Shown: positions 41,792 through 50,439 of the stretch, piece after piece
How the letters are laid out: each line of letters starts with the position of its first letter
How positions within the stretch are numbered: position 1 is the stretch's first letter
Assembly: GCA_007693745.1 (NCBI GenBank)
Contig: REDA01000007.1
Span: forward strand, 1 to 52,538
Origin: Balneolaceae bacterium
GTDB taxonomy: Bacteria; Bacteroidota; Rhodothermia; Balneolales; Balneolaceae
Direction of reading: 5' to 3'
Length of the DNA stretch: 52,538 nucleotides
Notes under the pieces: model-generated
Database searches by the model: none
Told to the model about the DNA's origin: nothing
What the model saw: only the letters and a program-made list of their open reading frames with translations
Program-made: the position numbers and the translations under genes

Positions 41792-42367
41792 TCAGTTTTC
41801 TCTTCTCCTCTTCTCGGATTCCACACAAAGCCGAAGCATTTCAACAATTCTCGACTTTTTTGTTCTGAAATTCTGATGGGAAATCCCCAGAAGTTTTGCC
41901 GTATCCTTATCTTTCTTATTGATGTGTTTCATCACTTCGGAAAAGAAGTCTGTTTTGTCTGCAGCCATTTTCTCAAGACACTTTTCCAGCAATTCTTCCC
42001 TCTCTTGTTTCTCAGCAGCTTCTGAATCATCATGAATGAAATCCGGATCATTGAAATTGCTGTATCGCAACGGAACTTCTTCGAATTTCTTTTTTTGCCA
42101 GGCGAGAAAACGGTGACGGGCAGAGGTAATCATATAAGCCATCAGGGAATTCACTCCTCTGACTCTTCCGCTTTTTACTTTTTCAAAGATATCTGCATAG
42201 ACACTTTGTGAAATATCCTCGATAACAGATTCATCCGCCTTGAATACCTGTCTGAGATAGAGAGAAAGCCTGTAGATAAACAGATCCGAGTAATGATTCA
42301 GCTCCTCCCTTTGCCCCTTCTGAATAAGCTTCAAAAAGTCATCTGAGGAAATATTATTTACTTTCAA
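41792..42367 (-). CDS. ECF-type RNA polymerase sigma factor
   Basis: This 191-residue protein has a sigma region 2 (about 10-95; VFKADESVIEDISQSVYADIF, then SLMAYMITSARHRFLAW) and a region 4 helix-turn-helix (about 130-185; KDKDTAKLLGISHQNFRTKKSRI). The linker is acidic. The first codon is TTG: an in-frame stop lies three codons upstream and the next ATG would remove most of region 2, so a weak TTG start may keep expression low. The gene is divergent from the small lipoprotein and CHAT genes across 746 bp. The likely partner is the anti-sigma-like protein at 46728-47477, although it is not adjacent. Confidence 0.85.
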   Translation of the reverse strand: MKVNNISSDDFLKLIQKGQREELNHYSDLFIYRLSLYLRQVFKADESVIEDISQSVYADIFEKVKSGRVRGVNSLMAYMITSARHRFLAWQKKKFEEVPLRYSNFNDPDFIHDDSEAAEKQEREELLEKCLEKMAADKTDFFSEVMKHINKKDKDTAKLLGISHQNFRTKKSRIVEMLRLCVESEKRRREN

Positions 42368-43113
42368 GACGGATTAGGTTGAGCACTTTTAGATCTTCAT
42401 CACCGGAAATCTGAAAAGGAAAATGCCTGAGCAAAACATTTTCTTCCGGTAACATGAAAAAAGATCCGCAATTCTTGTAACATTATGAAGCATTATTCAT
42501 CTTTACTTCAGAGACATAGGTTTTGAAGCACACTCTGCAAGTTATATACCCCGGGATTCGGCCTGATCACCAGCGGTGTTGCTGCTCTGTTCGGAAATCC
42601 GAATGGCCCTTCAGGATATGACTTGACAACAGATAAGTCGAAAAGCTGTTTTTCAAAGCCATTGAAATGTATGCTTACAATAGCAATCGAATTGTAAAAG
42701 GAAAATAAGGGGCTGATTACACACCAAAAGAACAGAGCATACTTGGCTGCCCCTTTAAAAGATCATATCTCGTTTTGAAAAGGATACTCAAAACGATCAA
42801 CCAACATACAAGGAGGGATCACTTCAGATCTTTTATTCACTTATTCCAGGCAGAATAGAAAACTGGATTTTGATTGAGTAGTACAGCATTTCGGACAACC
42901 AGATACAGATTTGTGATTCTGCGTGGGATTTATGTTTGCTGCTACTCTGAAATCATGGAAATGAATGTTTCACAAACTTCACGTACAGTTTCCCGTCAGA
43001 TCAGCTGACATACTGCTTAGGATTCTCAAAACAGAACTTCTCACGGGTAGCCGGCCTCAGTACACAAAAGCCGGATCCGGCCAACAACAACCAACCAACA
43101 ATCCAAAACGCTC
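42368..43113. other. Long noncoding region between sigma factor and lipoprotein genes
   Basis: This 746 bp stretch has no frame with a recognisable product. Its two ends must hold the divergent promoters of the sigma factor and the small lipoprotein. At about 42518-42660 there is a possible worn copy of the dispersed repeat: TAGGTTTTGAAGCAC at the left, and CTTGACAACAGATAAG and CTGTTTTTCAAAGCC at the right, spaced like the intact copies, but without the CAAGATCAAGGC core. The rest is unexplained and could hold a long leader or small RNA. Confidence 0.5.
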
Positions 43114-43329
43114 ATGAAAAATCAAATCAAAGCCATCATCATAACATTATTATTCATTCTCGCTGCCGGTTGTGCAGGGATTACAGAAAGCACCTTGCCT
43201 GTCACATCAGAACCTGTTTCCACAGAGCTTGAAATGATCGACATGGATCGCGGCGATATCTTTAATACCGGAACCAATGAAGAGGTTGTAACCGGTGAAA
43301 CGACATCTACTTATGATGACAGAGATTGA
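43114..43329 (+). CDS. Small lipoprotein, unknown function
   Basis: This is a 71-residue protein with a clear lipoprotein signal (IIITLLFILAAGCAG; lipobox LAAGC, Cys at residue 20). The mature part is only about 50 residues, acidic and Thr/Ser-rich, without predicted structure. No family is recognised. It is the first gene of the + strand part of the CHAT locus, 215 bp or more before the CHAT protease, so it may be a partner, a substrate or a surface tether for it. Confidence 0.7.
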   Translation: MKNQIKAIIITLLFILAAGCAGITESTLPVTSEPVSTELEMIDMDRGDIFNTGTNEEVVTGETTSTYDDRD

Positions 43330-43577
43330 AATCGGGCATGCAAGCTGATTTGAGTCTCCGGTCATTCAAAAGGAGCCAGGGGTTTTAGCCGAATCTTAAT
43401 TTCGTTTCAGAGATGAGGAGAAGATCCTGTATTAGAGGATCTGAACTCTTTCTGTCCGCTTCCGGATGCGAAATTATTATTTAGAATGGTGCTTTATTTA
43501 GTACATTCACCAGAGGAAAAGTCTATTTTCCCCGTTGAAATGTCATGTTTTGTCCGATTTCGGGAATAAACCACCCT

Positions 43578-46500
43578 ATGTATCACAGATTTTTTTTTCT
43601 GATTATTTACATACTGAGTCCGGCTTCAGAAGCTTCCGGTACTCATTCCGTTTCTGAAACCCGGAATGATCCGGAGATATTCCGCAACTGGATTTCCATA
43701 CATCAGCAGACAGAGCAGGATTCACTCTCTTCAGAACCTCTCTGGAACACTCTCGCAGAGGAGTTCTTTCAGCTCTATCTGCAAACGAATGAGGTGATTT
43801 ACCTCAATTTTGCTTTCAGTGAAGCCGGAAGGGTGAAAAGAGCAGAGATAATTTCACGCCCTGAACTGAATCTTGAGAGTGTGGATCCGGATTATGCAGC
43901 CCTTTACATTCTGCGGACTGATGAAAGCAAAAGGTATGATCTCAGGGATTTCACTGCAGACGAACTCTATATTTTTTTAATTCACCGGATCCCACCGGAG
44001 CAGGAAGAAAATGCACGGAAACTATTGGATCACTGGTATAAGCAGTTTTACTCTGAATGGGAGCAGGACAAATTCAGAGCTTCTTTTACAGGCCAGGCGC
44101 TACTGTATGGTTTTTACAGGGTCGGGGACATGCGAAAAGTAGTTGAAATCGGAACCCTTCTTCTGGATAATCACCCTTTCCCCCCCTCTTTGTACACGAT
44201 TGATCTGTTTCGAAATCTGGCAAATGCATCCAACAGAATTGGATACCAGCGGCTCACTGCCAGGGTTTACAGTGAGATCCTGATTCCATTGTCAGAGGAG
44301 TTCTACCGCAAGGGAAATCCTTCTGAACTTGCTGATTTCCTCTATCTCTACGGGACATCTCTCTATCTGCTGGGTGAGCTGAATCGCGCCATAGAAGCTT
44401 TTGAACAGGTCACGGAAATGATGCTAAATGATCATGTGTTTTCTTTTGAGGAGAACCTCTATAACAACATGGCTGTAAGTTATTTAAATATGGGGTTTTT
44501 TGACCGCTATATCCGCTATCAGCTTCGCTCACTCGATCTGGCTTTCGAACGAAATAACATCGATATGCAGATTCTGATTCTCAGCAATCTTTATAATTTT
44601 CACAGGAATCGAAATGATTTCAACGAAGCGAGCGGCTATCTGAGAATGGCGCTGGAGACAGCTACTCAAAATGAACTGCTCTCCGAATCAGCAAATCTTC
44701 TGATTATCTCCGGAATTCACCAGCGGGAAGACCGCGGAAATCCGGAGGAGGCTCTGGAGTATTTTTATCGGGCCGTGGATGCTGCAGCCATTTCTGAAAA
44801 CTACCGCCACCGGCTGAACAGCATCCTGCAGCTTGCGGAAACCTATTACGAAACCGGAGATCCCGAATCCGGAAAAAGCTACTTCCTGAAAGCAATTGAG
44901 ACCACAGACTTTCAACAGGATCCCATTTATCATCTCACGGCGATAGCTGCATATGCGAATACGGCAACCCGGTTTGGAGATTTTAAAGATGCAGAGGAAC
45001 TACTTGCTATCCTCAGATCGAATGACCTGAGTTCACTGAGCCAGGATATTCAGGTAGTGGCCGCAAATGCAATCACCCGCCTATATCTGCACAATGGTGA
45101 TCAGGAACTTGCATACAGGAGTTCCCGGGATATTACGGACAAGGTCATGACCTGGCTGACTGAGAGCGTAGAGGAACAGAGCGGGATGATTCGGTTGCGA
45201 AAGGAGTTTTCGCAAGCACTCTATCTCTATTTTACATCCGCTGCAGCAACGGACAGGGTGCACGACGCACTGGTTACTGCAGGGCGTTTAAGGAATATCA
45301 GCCGATCCGGGATCTACAATAACCCACTTCTTAAGGCAAGCCTGTTGACAGATGAAGAAATCTCGCGAGACAATCAGCTCTCCTCCGAGATACAGCAGCT
45401 GCGAAACCAATTACGCAATGCGGCCGCAGATCAGCGCCCTTATCTGAACAATCAGATCCTTCTGGCACTGTCGGAACGCAATGAACTGCTGAATACACGT
45501 ATGCCAAACCGTGAAAGCCTGAACTACAGTGATCTGCTTGGCTCAACCCGCTCCCTGTTGAGGCGCGATGAAATGGTAGTCTATTTCGCCCGTTTTGAGC
45601 AGTCTCTTTTTCAATTTTTGATAACACGGGAAAATGTTGAACTCATCACACATGACGCCGGCCGGATTGACCTTTTACTGAACCGCGCGATTGACCGGTT
45701 CGGCAGAGGTACTACCGACCTCTTACTCCTTTCCGAACTCTATACCCTTCTTTTCAAAGAGAAGATTCCTCCATCTGTAAGAGGGCTCTATATCGTTCCC
45801 GACGGAGAGCTCTACAGACTTCCGGTGGAGATCCTGCCTGTGAACAAGGTTTCCTCATCTCACAGTTTTGGATCTGCCCGTTATCTGATTGAAGAGTATC
45901 GCATCAGTTATCTGAATACACTTACAGATCTGAAGTTAAAAGACAACCGCACCAGTTATTCCTATTCGTTTGCAGGCTTCGGTCTCAGCGATTTTCCAGG
46001 CGCAGGCCATTCTCATTTATCTGTACTGCCCTACACGAGAGATGAAATCAATCAATCAGCAAAAGCATTTCCAAAATCTGATGACTGGGTTACTTTCTTT
46101 GAGGAAGAGAGCACAAAACGCCGGCTCGTTGATATGGTTGGAAAAAGCAGAATTCTGCATCTTGCAACGCATAGCCGGGTTAATGAATCGGATCCGCTCT
46201 TTTCGGTACTCTACCTCCACCCCTCTGAAAACGATTCTGAAGAAAAAAGTGATGCCGGAAGACGAAGCAGGGAGCCGCTGGATCCAAACCTCTATGCCTA
46301 TGAACTTTTCGATCTCAATCTAAACGCAGAGCTGGTATTCTTAAGCTCTTGTGAATCGGGTTCCGGCGGTTATCTGAAAGGATCCGGAATCCTGGGATTG
46401 TCAAGATCTCTCTCCTATGCCGGTGCCAAAAGGCTGATCCTGAATCTCTGGCCGGTAGGTGATCAGGCTTCTTCTTTTATAGCCCCTCTGTTTTATCGCA

Positions 46501-46712
46501 ATTTCAGTGACGGAAATTCCAAATCTGAATCACTACGACAGGCGAAAATCCACTATCTGAATAACTACAACAGTGACCCATACCTCTGGGGACCATTTGT
46601 ACTCTATGGTCCCGATACCGGAAATAGCAAACCGGTCTCTCCCGTCCGCTATTTCCTTGTTATGATCACAGCGGGATTGATTTTTCTGGCATTTAAAAAA
46701 TTCATCCGGTAG
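43578..46712 (+). CDS. TPR-CHAT protease, predicted exported and membrane-anchored
   Basis: This protein of about 1044 residues opens with a hydrophobic signal (MYHRFFFLIIYIL, cleavage near SEASG); an upstream in-frame ATG at 43545 would add 11 residues. A long helical part with TPR-like repeats (about 150-600; for example ALEYFYRAVDAAAI and YGTSLYLLGELNRAIEAFEQ) precedes a C-terminal CHAT caspase-like domain with His865 in LHLATHSRVN and Cys925 in LSSCESGSGG, followed by LILNLWPVGDQAS. A last hydrophobic helix ends with FKKFIR. Both topology signals place TPR and CHAT outside the cytoplasm. CHAT members include separase-like and caspase-like proteases. Confidence 0.88.
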   Translation: MYHRFFFLIIYILSPASEASGTHSVSETRNDPEIFRNWISIHQQTEQDSLSSEPLWNTLAEEFFQLYLQTNEVIYLNFAFSEAGRVKRAEIISRPELNLESVDPDYAALYILRTDESKRYDLRDFTADELYIFLIHRIPPEQEENARKLLDHWYKQFYSEWEQDKFRASFTGQALLYGFYRVGDMRKVVEIGTLLLDNHPFPPSLYTIDLFRNLANASNRIGYQRLTARVYSEILIPLSEEFYRKGNPSELADFLYLYGTSLYLLGELNRAIEAFEQVTEMMLNDHVFSFEENLYNNMAVSYLNMGFFDRYIRYQLRSLDLAFERNNIDMQILILSNLYNFHRNRNDFNEASGYLRMALETATQNELLSESANLLIISGIHQREDRGNPEEALEYFYRAVDAAAISENYRHRLNSILQLAETYYETGDPESGKSYFLKAIETTDFQQDPIYHLTAIAAYANTATRFGDFKDAEELLAILRSNDLSSLSQDIQVVAANAITRLYLHNGDQELAYRSSRDITDKVMTWLTESVEEQSGMIRLRKEFSQALYLYFTSAAATDRVHDALVTAGRLRNISRSGIYNNPLLKASLLTDEEISRDNQLSSEIQQLRNQLRNAAADQRPYLNNQILLALSERNELLNTRMPNRESLNYSDLLGSTRSLLRRDEMVVYFARFEQSLFQFLITRENVELITHDAGRIDLLLNRAIDRFGRGTTDLLLLSELYTLLFKEKIPPSVRGLYIVPDGELYRLPVEILPVNKVSSSHSFGSARYLIEEYRISYLNTLTDLKLKDNRTSYSYSFAGFGLSDFPGAGHSHLSVLPYTRDEINQSAKAFPKSDDWVTFFEEESTKRRLVDMVGKSRILHLATHSRVNESDPLFSVLYLHPSENDSEEKSDAGRRSREPLDPNLYAYELFDLNLNAELVFLSSCESGSGGYLKGSGILGLSRSLSYAGAKRLILNLWPVGDQASSFIAPLFYRNFSDGNSKSESLRQAKIHYLNNYNSDPYLWGPFVLYGPDTGNSKPVSPVRYFLVMITAGLIFLAFKKFIR

Positions 46713-46727
46713 AACGACATACGAAGA

Positions 46728-47477
46728 TCACTCTGTTGCCGAGACTGCCTGCTTAGCCATTCTGATATAGGCACCATCCAACTCAATCACTTTGTGCAGA
46801 TAGACAGCCGCTTCGCCCGTTTGTGAGCGGTGCAGCAGTGTATTGGCAAGATACCAGTAAGCCTGCTCCAGCTGATACGGTTCCAGTGCAGGGTGTTGAG
46901 TCAGCCGGACGAACCACTCCCCGGCTTCGCTGAACTGCTGTTGATTGTAATGAATTCTCGCAATGGCAAAGACAATCTCGATTTCATCCACAGCACTGTT
47001 TTCCTGCAGTTGAAGCCGCTGCTGCAGTAAATCGATTCCATCCTCCGGTGAACCCTCCAGAGCCATGACATAGGCCTCATTGATTACCGGCAGAACACTT
47101 TCCGGAACCGATTCGGAACGTTCGATCGGATATTCGAGCAGGGCAAGAGGTTCAAAGTCCGTTTCAGATGTACCGAAATCAGACACAGTAAACAGAATCG
47201 TCAGCCCGGCCAGCAAAACCGCTGCTGCAGCGAGATATTTCAGAACCCCGGGCTTGAACACCCGGCCTGCACTGCTCACGGCCAAAGGCGGTTGGCCTGT
47301 TTCAGAAAACCTGTCCAGTTTCCCTTTCCTTCCCATCTCTCCAAGTGTAGTAAGAGTATTGTAGTAATCGAGACTCTCTTTGTCATCCAGCAGTTCAGCC
47401 CACAATTGATCCGCTTCAATATCGGTGAGTTCCCCATCCAGGAAACGATGAATTTTTTGCCTGATCTCATTTTCCAT
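46728..47477 (-). CDS. Anti-sigma-like single-pass membrane protein with periplasmic TPR
   Basis: This is a 249-residue protein. Residues 1-55 (RQKIHRFLDGELTDIEADQLW, then DYYNTLTTLGEM) resemble the N-terminal helical sigma-binding domain of anti-sigma factors but lack the zinc HxxxCxxC motif. One membrane helix spans about 79-98. The C-terminal 150 residues, expected in the periplasm, form TPR-like helices (EDGIDLLQQRLQLQEN, IARIHYNQQQFSEAGEWFVRL, YWYLANTLLHRSQTGEAAVYL). The gene converges with the CHAT gene (15 bp between stops) and starts right after the response-regulator stop. I infer it holds the ECF sigma factor in check and is read or cut from the periplasmic side. Confidence 0.7.
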   Translation of the reverse strand: MENEIRQKIHRFLDGELTDIEADQLWAELLDDKESLDYYNTLTTLGEMGRKGKLDRFSETGQPPLAVSSAGRVFKPGVLKYLAAAAVLLAGLTILFTVSDFGTSETDFEPLALLEYPIERSESVPESVLPVINEAYVMALEGSPEDGIDLLQQRLQLQENSAVDEIEIVFAIARIHYNQQQFSEAGEWFVRLTQHPALEPYQLEQAYWYLANTLLHRSQTGEAAVYLHKVIELDGAYIRMAKQAVSATE

Positions 47478-48029
47478 TCAATGCTCCGGTTTGGTTTCCG
47501 GCATCTTAATATACCTGCCTATTTCATCAATTGCTTTTAGCAAACTGGGTTTGCTGAACGGTTTTTGAATGTACGCATTCATCGTTGAAATGACACAATC
47601 TTCCCTTACATTCTCAAAATCATTCGAAGTAAGGGCAATCAGCGGAGTCTGGTGATAGCGATCCAGCTCTCTGATTTTTTTTGCTGTCTCAAACCCGTCA
47701 ATTCCCGAACCCAGATTGATGTCGATGATCACAAGATCATACTTCTCTCTCGAAATCGCAGTCAGAGCTTCTTCTCCTGTTTCAACACTATCTACATCAA
47801 AATATTCCTTCAGATAGATATGCAGAAGCAGGCGAATCTGAATATTATCCTCAATGTGCAGAAGCCTGGGCCTGTCAATCCGAAACCTCTCACTCTTCGG
47901 TTTTTCGGTAGTTCCGGAATAGGAATGTGTTCGGCCTGATCCATCACGAAACAGCAGATACTCATCTATGTAGATGTGCTGCAGTGTTGCGATCCGGTCT
48001 TCATATAAAAGTACGCAGGTTTTCATCAT
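47478..48029 (-). CDS. Response regulator, receiver-only with N-terminal extension
   Basis: This is a 183-residue protein. Residues about 54-175 are a receiver domain: LLHIEDNIQIRLLL (acidic pair), phospho-acceptor Asp103 in LVIIDINLGSGIDGFE, Thr in IALTSND and Lys in IQKPFSKP. There is no output domain. The first 53 residues form an unrecognised strand-rich segment (IYIDEYLLFRDGSGRTHSYSG), which may be a binding module or a worn domain. The stop is directly followed by the start of the anti-sigma-like gene, so both are co-translated. It may receive phosphate from a kinase elsewhere and act as a partner-switching protein. Confidence 0.85.
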   Translation of the reverse strand: MMKTCVLLYEDRIATLQHIYIDEYLLFRDGSGRTHSYSGTTEKPKSERFRIDRPRLLHIEDNIQIRLLLHIYLKEYFDVDSVETGEEALTAISREKYDLVIIDINLGSGIDGFETAKKIRELDRYHQTPLIALTSNDFENVREDCVISTMNAYIQKPFSKPSLLKAIDEIGRYIKMPETKPEH

Positions 48030-48328
48030 TCGAACTTATTTGAAACTTTTCACTTGCCTTCTACCTTAATGAGTCTTAAGTCTCTCTTTTGTTACAATTT
48101 TTCCGTATTTATTTTAAAATTTTCCATACCCTGAATGTAAAAGCCGGTTCGTTTGTTGGGTACCGGATATCACTATTTTGCCATGAAAAAGAGTTCTTTA
48201 ATTTTTTCCTGCTCATCCTTATCGGCAGGTACTTTTATAAACATAAGATCCGGTTTTGCTCTACTGCTGCAGCGTAACCCATTCTGTTCAACTTCCTTCA
48301 TTTTCAAACTGTCTGATGTTTGACTGAG

Positions 48329-49306
48329 ATGCAAAGATCTGCACTGAAATTATTTATCCCGGTCGCACTTGCTGCTCTTGCAATCTGGATCTTCTATATG
48401 AGCTGGAGCTCCAGCTGGTTTCTTTTCAGGGATAACTGGTTTATGACTGCAACCATGCTGTTCGGCTCCTTCATAGCCGGTGCCAGTTCCGAGGGAGGAG
48501 GTGCTATTGCATACCCGGTGATGACACTCATCTTCAGCATTGAACCGGATATCGCACGCAATTTCAGCTTTGCCATCCAGAGTATTGGTATGACTTTCGC
48601 GGCTTTCTGGATCGTGCTTTCGAAAATACGGATTGACCTGACCTATTTCATTCTGGCAGGCACAGGCGGACTCGTTGGCATCATCTTTGGTACCTTTTTT
48701 GTTGCTCCGCTGGTCCTGCCTGAATACGCAAAAATGATGTTTGTCTCTTTCTGGTTAAGTTTCGGGATCGCTCTCTGGATTGTTACCTTCGTGAATGAGA
48801 GAAAACACCGAGATTCACTCCCCCGTCTTTCTGCTGCTCAAAAAGCGGAACTGTTACTTGTGGGGGTGTTTGGCGGCGTTTTCAGCTCGGTTCTCGGTAA
48901 TGGGCTTGACATCTGCTCCTTTTCATATGTGGTGATTAAATATGGCCTTTCCGAAAAAGTTGCCACCCCTACCTCCGTAATGCTCATGGCCAGCAACGCC
49001 ATCGCCGGATTAATCCTCAATACATGGGTGGTCCAAACCATGCAGCCGGAAGCGATTCAGTACTGGCTGGTTTCAATACCGGTGGTCATTTTTGGCGCCC
49101 CGCTGGGAGCTTATGTCATCACCCGTATCGGCAGAAAAACGATTGCCGGAATCCTGATATCCATCATCATTATTCAGTTTGTAACTGCACTCTTTATTGT
49201 AAGGCCGGGTTCAGAACTTTCTCTTTTCTCATTCCTGATTTTTCTGGCGGGAATTATTCTCTTTTTCGTGCTGACAAAATCGGGTCAATCTTCCCGTACC
49301 GAATAA
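48329..49306 (+). CDS. Sulfite exporter TauE/SafE (TSUP) family transporter, type 1
   Basis: This is a membrane protein of about 325 residues with eight or more hydrophobic segments. The start is ATG 48329; the frame extends to a TTG at 48320. TSUP marks are SFIAGASSEGGGAIAYPVMTL near the N-terminus and GVFGGVFSSVLGNGLDICSF in the second half, the repeated inverted-pair motif. The family exports sulfite, sulfoacetate or related anions. The motif GxxxEGGG is the variant seen in larger, less-studied members. It converges with a second TSUP gene of a different subgroup. Confidence 0.82.
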   Translation: MQRSALKLFIPVALAALAIWIFYMSWSSSWFLFRDNWFMTATMLFGSFIAGASSEGGGAIAYPVMTLIFSIEPDIARNFSFAIQSIGMTFAAFWIVLSKIRIDLTYFILAGTGGLVGIIFGTFFVAPLVLPEYAKMMFVSFWLSFGIALWIVTFVNERKHRDSLPRLSAAQKAELLLVGVFGGVFSSVLGNGLDICSFSYVVIKYGLSEKVATPTSVMLMASNAIAGLILNTWVVQTMQPEAIQYWLVSIPVVIFGAPLGAYVITRIGRKTIAGILISIIIIQFVTALFIVRPGSELSLFSFLIFLAGIILFFVLTKSGQSSRTE

Positions 49307-49354
49307 TTTGCAGCTTGCGGAACTTCGTTTGTTCTCCAAACTGTATGATGCTGT

Positions 49355-50167
49355 CTATCCAAATAATTCTCCCAGCATCGAAATTGCGATCACTGTAATG
49401 AGCAAGGCAAAAAGAAGATATAACAGACGCTGATTTACAAATTTGCCTAACCTGACACCGGCAAACCCGCCGATAAAAGCACCGGCAATTAAGGGCAGGG
49501 CTGTCCCAAAGTCAACATATCCAAGCGTGACTGAAGATGCACCTGGAGGTGCATCGGTCAGCAGTGCATACTGCAGCCATCCCGAAAGAGAGATGAATAC
49601 AATGGCAAGCGACGAAATGCTGACTGCTTTTCTTACCGGTATCTGAAACATCAGATTCATGATGGGAACCATGACGATACCTCCTCCAACTCCCGCAAGA
49701 GCTGCAATAAATCCTCCCGCACCCCCGGCCACGGTAAAATGACCGACTCTGCTCTGATTCCGGCCGGCAGGTGTCTGATACTCTGCCCCGCTTCTCCTGA
49801 TAAACAGAACAGCTACCCAAATCAGGAGCAGAATAAAATAACCCGCAAAGAGTCTGCTGCTGAACCATGACGACAATACCACACTTTTACCTGCAAAAAC
49901 AGCAATACTCCCTGCGAAACCGACCCATAAACCCTCTCTCCAGTATAAATTTTTCTGCTTTCTCTGCTGAATTGTACTGCTCAGTGATGCTGAAAATGTA
50001 CAGAAAAGCGAAGTGGCAATCGCCCAGGTAGCCGGCTGCTCCAGGCCCAGCGTCTGAAAAAGATAAAACAATACCGGTGTGAAGAGCAATCCGCCGCCAA
50101 TCCCAAAGAGGCCGGCGGCGGCTCCGGCAACAACACCCATTAAAATCAGCAGTACCGTTAATAACAT
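49355..50167 (-). CDS. Sulfite exporter TauE/SafE (TSUP) family transporter, type 2
   Basis: This is a membrane protein of about 270 residues with eight predicted helices. I chose ATG 50167, which opens directly into the first helix (MLLTVLLILMG); an upstream in-frame start at 50197 is GTG. Classic TSUP repeats are visible: GAAAGLFGIGGGLLFTPVL in the N-half and GFIAALAGVGGGIVMVPIM in the C-half, then GGFAGVRLGKFVNQR near the end. Substrate may be sulfite or another sulfur anion. The two TSUP genes face each other with 48 bp between stops. Confidence 0.85.
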   Translation of the reverse strand: MLLTVLLILMGVVAGAAAGLFGIGGGLLFTPVLFYLFQTLGLEQPATWAIATSLFCTFSASLSSTIQQRKQKNLYWREGLWVGFAGSIAVFAGKSVVLSSWFSSRLFAGYFILLLIWVAVLFIRRSGAEYQTPAGRNQSRVGHFTVAGGAGGFIAALAGVGGGIVMVPIMNLMFQIPVRKAVSISSLAIVFISLSGWLQYALLTDAPPGASSVTLGYVDFGTALPLIAGAFIGGFAGVRLGKFVNQRLLYLLFALLITVIAISMLGELFG

Positions 50168-50439
50168 TGATGATCCGTATTTGAATGACCAGAACACATT
50201 CCGTTACAAAGAAACACCCGGCTTATTCCGAAGCTCCTTTTCGATAAGAAAACCTTGTAAATTGAGCGTAATTAAGCAAGAATCCAGATCGATATTACCG
50301 GTGTCAATTCCCAATGAGGGTACGGGATTCAGAGTAATTGTACAAATATCGAATTGAGATGACTCTGCTTTCCGATCCCTGAGCAAACAGGAAATTCCGG
50401 GTGACTTTTCATTGTTTGTGAAGTTCACGACCTTACAGA

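Follow-up and report, generated by a model that had tools for sequence, protein, structure and literature searches.

The locus described here raises a question of substrate: what does an exported CHAT protease cut when its gene lies between those of a sigma factor and an anti-sigma-like membrane protein? The window is the whole stretch analysed, 52,538 nucleotides of contig REDA01000007.1 from a Balneolaceae bacterium (GCA_007693745.1), whose genome comprises 2.87 Mb in 100 contigs. Its close relatives are Balneolaceae, and the named relatives include Balneolaceae metagenome-assembled genomes, Rhodohalobacter, Fodinibius, Aliifodinibius and Balneola. The five open reading frames (ORFs) of the original prediction were all found in the window. 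An extracytoplasmic function (ECF) sigma factor gene on the minus strand (41792..42367) is followed on the plus strand by the genes of a small lipoprotein (43114..43329) and a tetratricopeptide repeat (TPR)-CHAT protease (43545..46712), and then on the minus strand by those of the anti-sigma-like protein (46728..47477) and a receiver-only response regulator (47478..48029), the first gene of its pair. The ECF gene is divergent from the lipoprotein-CHAT pair, and the receiver/anti-sigma pair is convergent on CHAT. On balance we favour the view that the exported CHAT is a site-1 protease, which would cut the anti-sigma after Arg120 and so free the ECF sigma factor upon an envelope signal.

The candidate cut site lies in the linker of the anti-sigma-like protein (249 aa). 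The AlphaFold2 (AF2) model of this protein has three N-terminal helices (residues 2-50), a low-confidence stretch, a transmembrane (TM) helix (78-100; 47178..47246, minus strand), an extended linker and TPR helices (129-248). In both the alignment and the model, the N-terminal domain is followed by one TM helix, in agreement with the single-pass topology and periplasmic TPR domain first proposed. Arg120 (codon 47118..47120, minus strand) is the sole invariant residue of the extracytoplasmic linker and follows the TM segment at a distance of 18-25 residues. It is present in 50/50 proteins of alignment A2, which comprises the window's copy and 49 of 53 anti-sigmas from relatives, and in all of the 33 clusters formed at 60% identity. 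The four left out of the alignment (L075, L090, L099 and L110) also bear the Arg. The next residue is Ser in 45 proteins, Gly in 4 and Thr in 1. Arg120 is the predicted P1 residue of the CHAT cut.

The surroundings of this Arg resemble the sites of separase, a protease whose fold the CHAT model matches. Separase sites are given as [D/E/S]-hydrophobic-ExxR, with DxxR used too (PMC12609080), and those of the yeast enzyme as (D/E)xxR (PMC4626109). The full pattern [DES]-hydrophobic-[DE]xxR was found at Arg120 in 32/50 anti-sigmas and the shorter [DE]xxR in 38/50. A hydrophobic residue occupies P5 in 49/50, and at P4 Asp is commoner than Glu. The 50 anti-sigmas contain 42 full-pattern matches in total, so 10 lie elsewhere than at Arg120; the CHAT proteins contain 30 such matches in 40,591 residues.

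The Arg is also found in the equivalent topological position in two other sets of anti-sigmas. In a paralogous family it follows the TM segment in 13/13 complete members (the truncated L158 was omitted), of which 12 have D/E at P4, and in each of the 14 fetched loci containing the gene an ECF gene adjoins it. This second set occurs in the same group of genomes (L151-L170, e.g. L153 and L158), with ECF2 and anti-sigma 2 adjacent, and its CHATs have a signal-peptide-like N-terminus. The third set consists of nine CHAT-linked anti-sigmas with a different, non-TPR periplasmic domain of the GLYYWK type at the C-terminus. Their sources include Ignavibacteria-type, KSB1 and Saprospiraceae genomes, and two come from one genome. 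The Arg, which was spotted by eye ahead of alignment, stands directly before that domain in 9/9. The idea that the Arg is a structural element of the TPR domain was set aside, because it is retained where the periplasmic domain is not TPR. Within 5-60 residues after the TM segment, R[SGAT] was present in 15/19 CHAT-linked proteins and in 4/16 CHAT-less, ECF-linked TM proteins (Fisher p 0.002); the 19 omit one of 20 proteins (L182:2197-3633, whose ECF does not adjoin CHAT) and count both of the near-identical L201 and L202.

Several observations weigh against cleavage at this residue. The window's own site, EYPIER/S, has Pro at P4 and is therefore off the separase pattern, and D/E is missing at P4 in 12/50 anti-sigmas. 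CHAT was present in the same fetched stretch as the paralogous anti-sigma gene in only 5/14 loci. When the searched stretch was widened to +5..+100, R[SGAT] was found in 18/20 CHAT-linked proteins and 9/16 controls, a smaller contrast. Outside the order the P4 acid was not enriched: [DE]xxR[SGAT] occurred in 3/20 CHAT-linked proteins against 2/16 controls, and [DE]xxR in 4/20 against 5/16. L216 has no Arg at the site. The linker was modelled at a predicted local distance difference test (pLDDT) score of 81-84, so the Arg could sit in packed structure.

This last point bears on a different explanation, in which CHAT and the anti-sigma bind through their TPRs without cleavage, the Arg-Ser segment serves for docking or structure, and a signal shifts the complex so that the sigma factor is released. 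The predicted order of the linker, the presence of TPRs on both partners and the incomplete conservation of D/E at P4 would all suit it. A pure scaffold would have no need of the His and Cys that are invariant in 38/38 CHATs, and the retention of the Arg beside a non-TPR domain also speaks against it. We regard release without cleavage as unlikely, though it deserves to be kept in view.

Cleavage by CHAT would require a competent protease on the outer side of the membrane. The protein (1055 aa) matches the CHAT domain PF12770 at 170.4 bits (cut-off 24) and also contains TPRs. Its N-terminus is signal-peptide-like, with Met12 (43578, plus strand) judged by eye a likelier start than Met1, and hydropathy and the AF2 model mark a C-terminal helix (residues 1036-1054; 46650..46706, plus strand) as a probable membrane anchor. 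Alignment A3 holds 38 full-length copies; truncated copies and some near-duplicates, L109, L118 and L119 among them, were omitted. By one hydropathy rule, 38/38 of these have a hydrophobic segment at the N-terminus and a hydrophobic anchor at the C-terminus, and the same rule applied to ECF proteins as a control gave 0/20 and 1/20. The sequence features behind the proposed export and anchoring of the TPR-CHAT protein were thus borne out. His876 (ATHS; codon 46170..46172, plus strand) and Cys936 (SSCESG; codon 46350..46352, plus strand) are likewise invariant in 38/38, that is, the catalytic-type His-Cys dyad is present.

The AF2 model of CHAT had a mean pLDDT of 82.6. Its best fold match was Csx29 (7y9x; Z 27.6, root-mean-square deviation (rmsd) 8.4 Å, 559 residues aligned), and the protease domain of separase came second (5fby; Z 25.6, rmsd 3.3 Å, 308 aligned). 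DdvA followed with Z 21.4 (8rw5) and Z 21.0 (8rot) at an rmsd of about 10 Å over 515 and 522 residues, values no higher than those of plain TPR proteins (Z 20-22). Foldseek placed DdvA (6.6e-11) ahead of the first LGN-type chain (1.4e-6), and the DdvA alignment spans residues 322-1022 of the model, that is, TPR and CHAT. Among PDB sequences DdvA was the sole plausible match of the CHAT profile (E 0.0039), and no separase was reached at E up to 1. A single-sequence search of the PDB with the CHAT domain gave nothing useful, and TPR proteins dominated the results of profile searches with full-length CHAT or anti-sigma.

A residue that might read the P1 Arg can also be proposed. Asp973 (codon 46461..46463, plus strand) is invariant in 38/38 CHATs and lies 37 residues past Cys936. 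In human separase, D2070 lies 41 residues past the catalytic Cys (PMC12609080), and Csx29 is described as having K670 where separase has D2151, the Asp that reads P1-Arg (PMC9729208). Asp973 is therefore a candidate P1-Arg pocket residue, its equivalence to the separase residue being drawn from offsets only.

The other partner would have to hold the sigma factor at its N-terminus. This region of the anti-sigma matched zf-HC2 at E 0.012, below the cut-off. Profile comparison with the N-terminus of CHAT-linked membrane proteins from other lineages gave an hhalign probability of 93.5% (E 2.3e-7, 37 columns), and one of those proteins exceeds the zf-HC2 cut-off (30 vs 22.2 bits). The match to zf-HC2-bearing relatives suggests that the N-terminus is probably an anti-sigma domain without zinc ligands. 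The fold comparison of the anti-sigma model was swamped by TPR proteins and was uninformative for the N-terminal fold. Among 296 genomes, the Ignavibacterium anti-sigma had matches in 5 and the Saprospiraceae anti-sigma in none.

The block recurs in a fixed order in many relatives. Counts were made on 61 Balneolota-type loci (L071-L130 and L133), some of which share a genome, and only sufficiently flanked loci were scored. A divergent ECF gene lies near CHAT in 22/24 testable loci and a convergent anti-sigma gene beside it in 51/55. CHAT genes lacking these partners were thus the exception (ECF missing in 2/24, anti-sigma in 4/55), and the association that had been predicted mostly held. The lipoprotein was detected by hidden Markov model (HMM) in 14/24 testable loci, with more than one match in 5/24; a lipobox scan added L099, L112 and L122, which raised the count to 17/24. 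A receiver gene lies behind the anti-sigma gene in 22/48 testable loci and is absent from 26/48. The conserved core is the ECF sigma factor, the divergent TPR-CHAT and the convergent single-TM anti-sigma; the lipoprotein is frequent and the receiver optional. Same-genus loci of sufficient extent also retain the flanking methyltransferase and TauE genes, and in other families of the order the block is kept without them. Two Fodinibius loci (L099 and L112) have no ECF gene near CHAT, which counts against the proposed circuit. In one relative, G031 (98% complete), this CHAT, ECF and anti-sigma had no match at E <=1e-3.

Some further features of CHAT loci were noted. CHAT is duplicated in tandem in some same-genus genomes (L038 6865-13317, L039 3-6709, L062 2-3521). 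In L040 (6880-9928; genome G005) stops break the N-terminal half of CHAT, the catalytic half is open, and four lipoprotein matches adjoin. Contigs L080, L100 and L125, labelled PVC group, Chitinophagaceae and Mollicutes, hold Balneolota-like genes and are perhaps mislabelled or from mixed bins.

Another explanation would place CHAT in a cell-death or anti-phage module, in which it would cut a gasdermin-like or other executioner and the sigma genes would be mere neighbours. CHAT proteins do act in type III-E CRISPR and on gasdermins (PMC9729208). At this locus, a CHAT match (paralogue included) was found in 55/58 relatives, unlike a patchy defence island; PADLOC returned for the five proteins a generic TPR match only, with no gasdermin-directed search made; and no plasmid match was found. 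An origin as a defence island or plasmid gene was set aside on these grounds, and the cell-death explanation seems to us highly improbable.

The output of the pathway can be sought in its promoters. The ECF protein (191 aa) scored 38.1 bits against TIGR02937, under the cut-off of 42.9, and its orthologues align over their full length, in agreement with the TTG start. In the 26 intergenic regions between ECF and lipoprotein/CHAT, the motif GTAAC-spacer-ACTC was directed at lipoprotein-CHAT in 15 and never at ECF; 20 sites were found, with a spacer of 16 in 19. Markov resampling gave a mean of 0.3 and a maximum of 2 in 200 resamplings. The motif was also present upstream of 17/50 anti-sigma operons, DNA that was not used for its discovery, compared with 3/400 control ORFs (at least 150 aa, real genes or not). 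The window has a single exact GTAAC-N16-ACTC (48071-48095, minus strand), 41 nt upstream of the start of the receiver gene. In the longer form TGTAACA-N15-ACTC (48071..48096, minus strand), it is the predicted ECF promoter upstream of the receiver/anti-sigma pair. We consider TGTAACA-N15-ACTC a probable ECF promoter at this locus in the window and in many relatives, and we infer that it would be read by this ECF sigma factor.

The motif has weaknesses, which again count against the proposed circuit. It was picked from the same intergenic DNA in which it was counted, so the contrast at 15/26 is optimistic; the scan that yielded it had a best word pair at 14/26, little above the 10-12 of shuffled sequences. 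The exact motif is absent from 11/26 lipoprotein/CHAT intergenic regions, among them that of the window, and 33/50 anti-sigma operons also lack it. With one mismatch allowed, the window holds 5 matches and 5.5 are expected by chance. The window's genome has 2 exact matches to TGTAACA-N15-ACTC, compared with 3 for the reversed-pattern control.

In seven other genomes there were 3-14 exact matches to TGTAACA-N15-ACTC vs 1-3 for the controls. The motif occurs at this locus in 8/8 genomes, which were hand-chosen, most being already known to show it. Outside the locus, it precedes genes of two kinds. Before the closest ParA-like genes it was exact in 6/12 and present with one mismatch in 10/12, compared with 0/18 more distant ParA genes; the 30 loci were split into close and distant after their scores were known, and one distant locus was short of upstream DNA. 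Before pilin-like genes it was exact in 6/30 and present with one mismatch in 10/30 (three loci were short of upstream DNA). These targets were found through exact motif matches, and re-counted sites include 3 of the 6 exact ParA matches (G023, G033, G030) and 2 of the 6 pilin matches (G023, G030). The window's genome contains no close copy of the ParA-like or pilin-like target. ParA-like ATPase genes with the motif are those of L268, L294, L296 and L327-L338; in L268, L294 and L296 it lies 41-43 nt before the start, and a small basic protein gene follows in L268 and L294. Pilin-like proteins that start with MGQQQLLL have the motif upstream in L287, L289, L293 and L303-L307. The label "pilin-like" refers to a hydrophobic N-terminus and, in L293, to a type II secretion F-like neighbour under the Pfam cut-off; the one protein tested (L287) matched no Pfam family over the cut-off.

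With the motif before it in many relatives, CHAT would itself be a member of the regulon. This would suit an explanation in which the anti-sigma is first cut by another protease and CHAT acts on something else, such as the lipoprotein or the sigma factor. The lipoprotein gene adjoins that of CHAT on the upstream side, and its product often has a conserved I-I-x-R/K-P-like C-terminal tail; for ECF54, it has been proposed that CHAT neighbours control the sigma factor with no anti-sigma involved (PMC8999054). Against this, the anti-sigma gene adjoins CHAT in 51/55 loci and other anti-sigma types recur beside CHAT; a cytoplasmic sigma factor should also be out of reach of an exported CHAT. We consider a first cut by another protease quite unlikely.

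The lipoprotein and the receiver have less certain places in the circuit that we favour, in which CHAT cuts the anti-sigma. The lipoprotein (71 aa) has the lipobox LAAGC, and its orthologues sit at the same place in relatives, as expected of the lipoprotein first described. Several of these orthologues carry the I-I-x-R/K-P-like motif in a conserved C-terminal tail, and the window's copy does not. It is possible that the lipoprotein acts as a securin-like pseudosubstrate of CHAT; for a copy that lacks the motif this is an idea only. In L085, L096, L103, L112 and L116 the lipoprotein occurs in two or three similar tandem copies upstream of CHAT. The receiver was recognised by PF00072 (74.6 bits), and no output domain was found, in keeping with a receiver-only regulator. 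The original prediction had made it a second input of the circuit. As a general feature this did not hold, and the receiver was set aside as a core component, since it is absent from 26/48 testable loci. What stood was the other part, an action of CHAT on the periplasmic side of the anti-sigma that would free the ECF sigma factor; synteny, topology, the invariant Arg near the membrane, the resemblance of the N-terminus to zf-HC2-bearing anti-sigmas and the shared motif all point to it. Beside the block, two convergent genes (48320-50197) are retained in several same-genus genomes; the first is of the TauE/SafE type by Pfam and the second looks alike.

The steps of the proposed mechanism may then be set out as follows. 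At rest, the N-terminal domain of the anti-sigma would hold the ECF sigma factor. A signal would be sensed through the exported, membrane-anchored TPR-CHAT, perhaps with the lipoprotein as adaptor or inhibitor, and CHAT would be activated. Facing the periplasm, it would cut the anti-sigma after Arg120, some 20 residues from the membrane on the outer side. The remainder would be degraded by general proteases, first of the site-2 type and then cytoplasmic, which would leave the sigma factor free; the window's genome encodes two M50 proteins, and M50 is likewise present in 14/14 control genomes. The freed sigma factor would then transcribe its own pathway from TGTAACA-N15-ACTC promoters, and in relatives such promoters would add ParA-like and pilin-like genes to its targets.

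How far this extends beyond the order was surveyed with the best CHAT of one genome per genus in 33 genera. Beside it lay a pair of adjacent ECF and single-TM protein genes in 0/10 genera of the same class and 9/23 of the phylum (9/33 in total), which argues against a general association; in further loci outside the Balneolota type, the pair was found in 9/19. The data indicate that the pairing recurs but is no rule for CHAT proteins. A class-wide version is more doubtful: exported CHATs might be the site-1 proteases of one class of ECF anti-sigmas in Bacteroidota and neighbouring phyla. The cut would fall after an Arg where the linker meets the periplasmic domain, and in Balneolota the specificity would be separase-like; the type III-E CRISPR protease-sigma switch and DdvA might have branched off from this chromosomal circuit. 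We put this forward tentatively.

Several known systems resemble the locus in part. In type III-E CRISPR, Csx29 cuts Csx30, which binds and inhibits the ECF-like CASP-sigma (PMC10028731). Here too a TPR-CHAT protease, a predicted sigma-binding inhibitor and an ECF-like sigma factor are encoded together, and Csx29 is the best structural match. However, the CHAT of the window is exported and anchored instead of being cytoplasmic and bound to Cas7-11 (the comparison did not extend to a search for CRISPR arrays or cas genes), and the proposed inhibitor spans the membrane once. For P1, Arg is predicted, unlike the case of Csx29 with its K670; the trigger is another one, and the specificity is probably different. 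DdvA offers another likeness. PDB entries 8rot and 8rw5 are titled transmembrane anti-sigma factor DdvA, with the molecule named CHAT domain-containing protein. In Myxococcus xanthus, DdvA is the anti-sigma of the ECF sigma factor DdvS, which is active once DdvA is inactivated (PMC4374960); the PDB protein was equated with it from the name only. Taken together, the title, the CHAT name and the role towards DdvS make CHAT and anti-sigma seem to share one chain elsewhere, whereas separate genes encode them here.

ECF group 54 is similar in its gene neighbourhood: it has CHAT-domain neighbours, and control by proteolysis has been proposed for it (PMC8999054). The same source proposes that control without an anti-sigma, alongside carboxypeptidase and subtilase neighbours. 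Eukaryotic separase shares the protease fold and a site motif like that at Arg120, but the CHAT described here is bacterial and exported and has another predicted substrate. The proposed circuit is also like DegS-RseA-sigmaE of E. coli, in which an envelope-stress protease cuts an anti-sigma and frees an ECF sigma factor (PMC10028731). Here a cysteine-type CHAT protease with TPRs would replace DegS, and the periplasmic domain of the anti-sigma is TPR. Besides the CRISPR case, a neighbourhood of CHAT and ECF genes is already in print for group ECF54 (PMC8999054). Neither this gene set nor the cut site was described among the open-access literature matches listed, which do not cover the 2021 ECF re-classification.

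If the proposal is true, it tells what an exported CHAT protease cuts and where, in a form that a single point mutation can put to the test. Sigma-factor signalling would then have a separase-like protease of the bacterial envelope as its trigger, and the locus would stand beside the CRISPR Craspase sigma switch as its chromosomal counterpart and perhaps its forerunner. The candidate target promoters, at its own locus and before ParA-like and pilin-like genes, would make the output of the pathway measurable.

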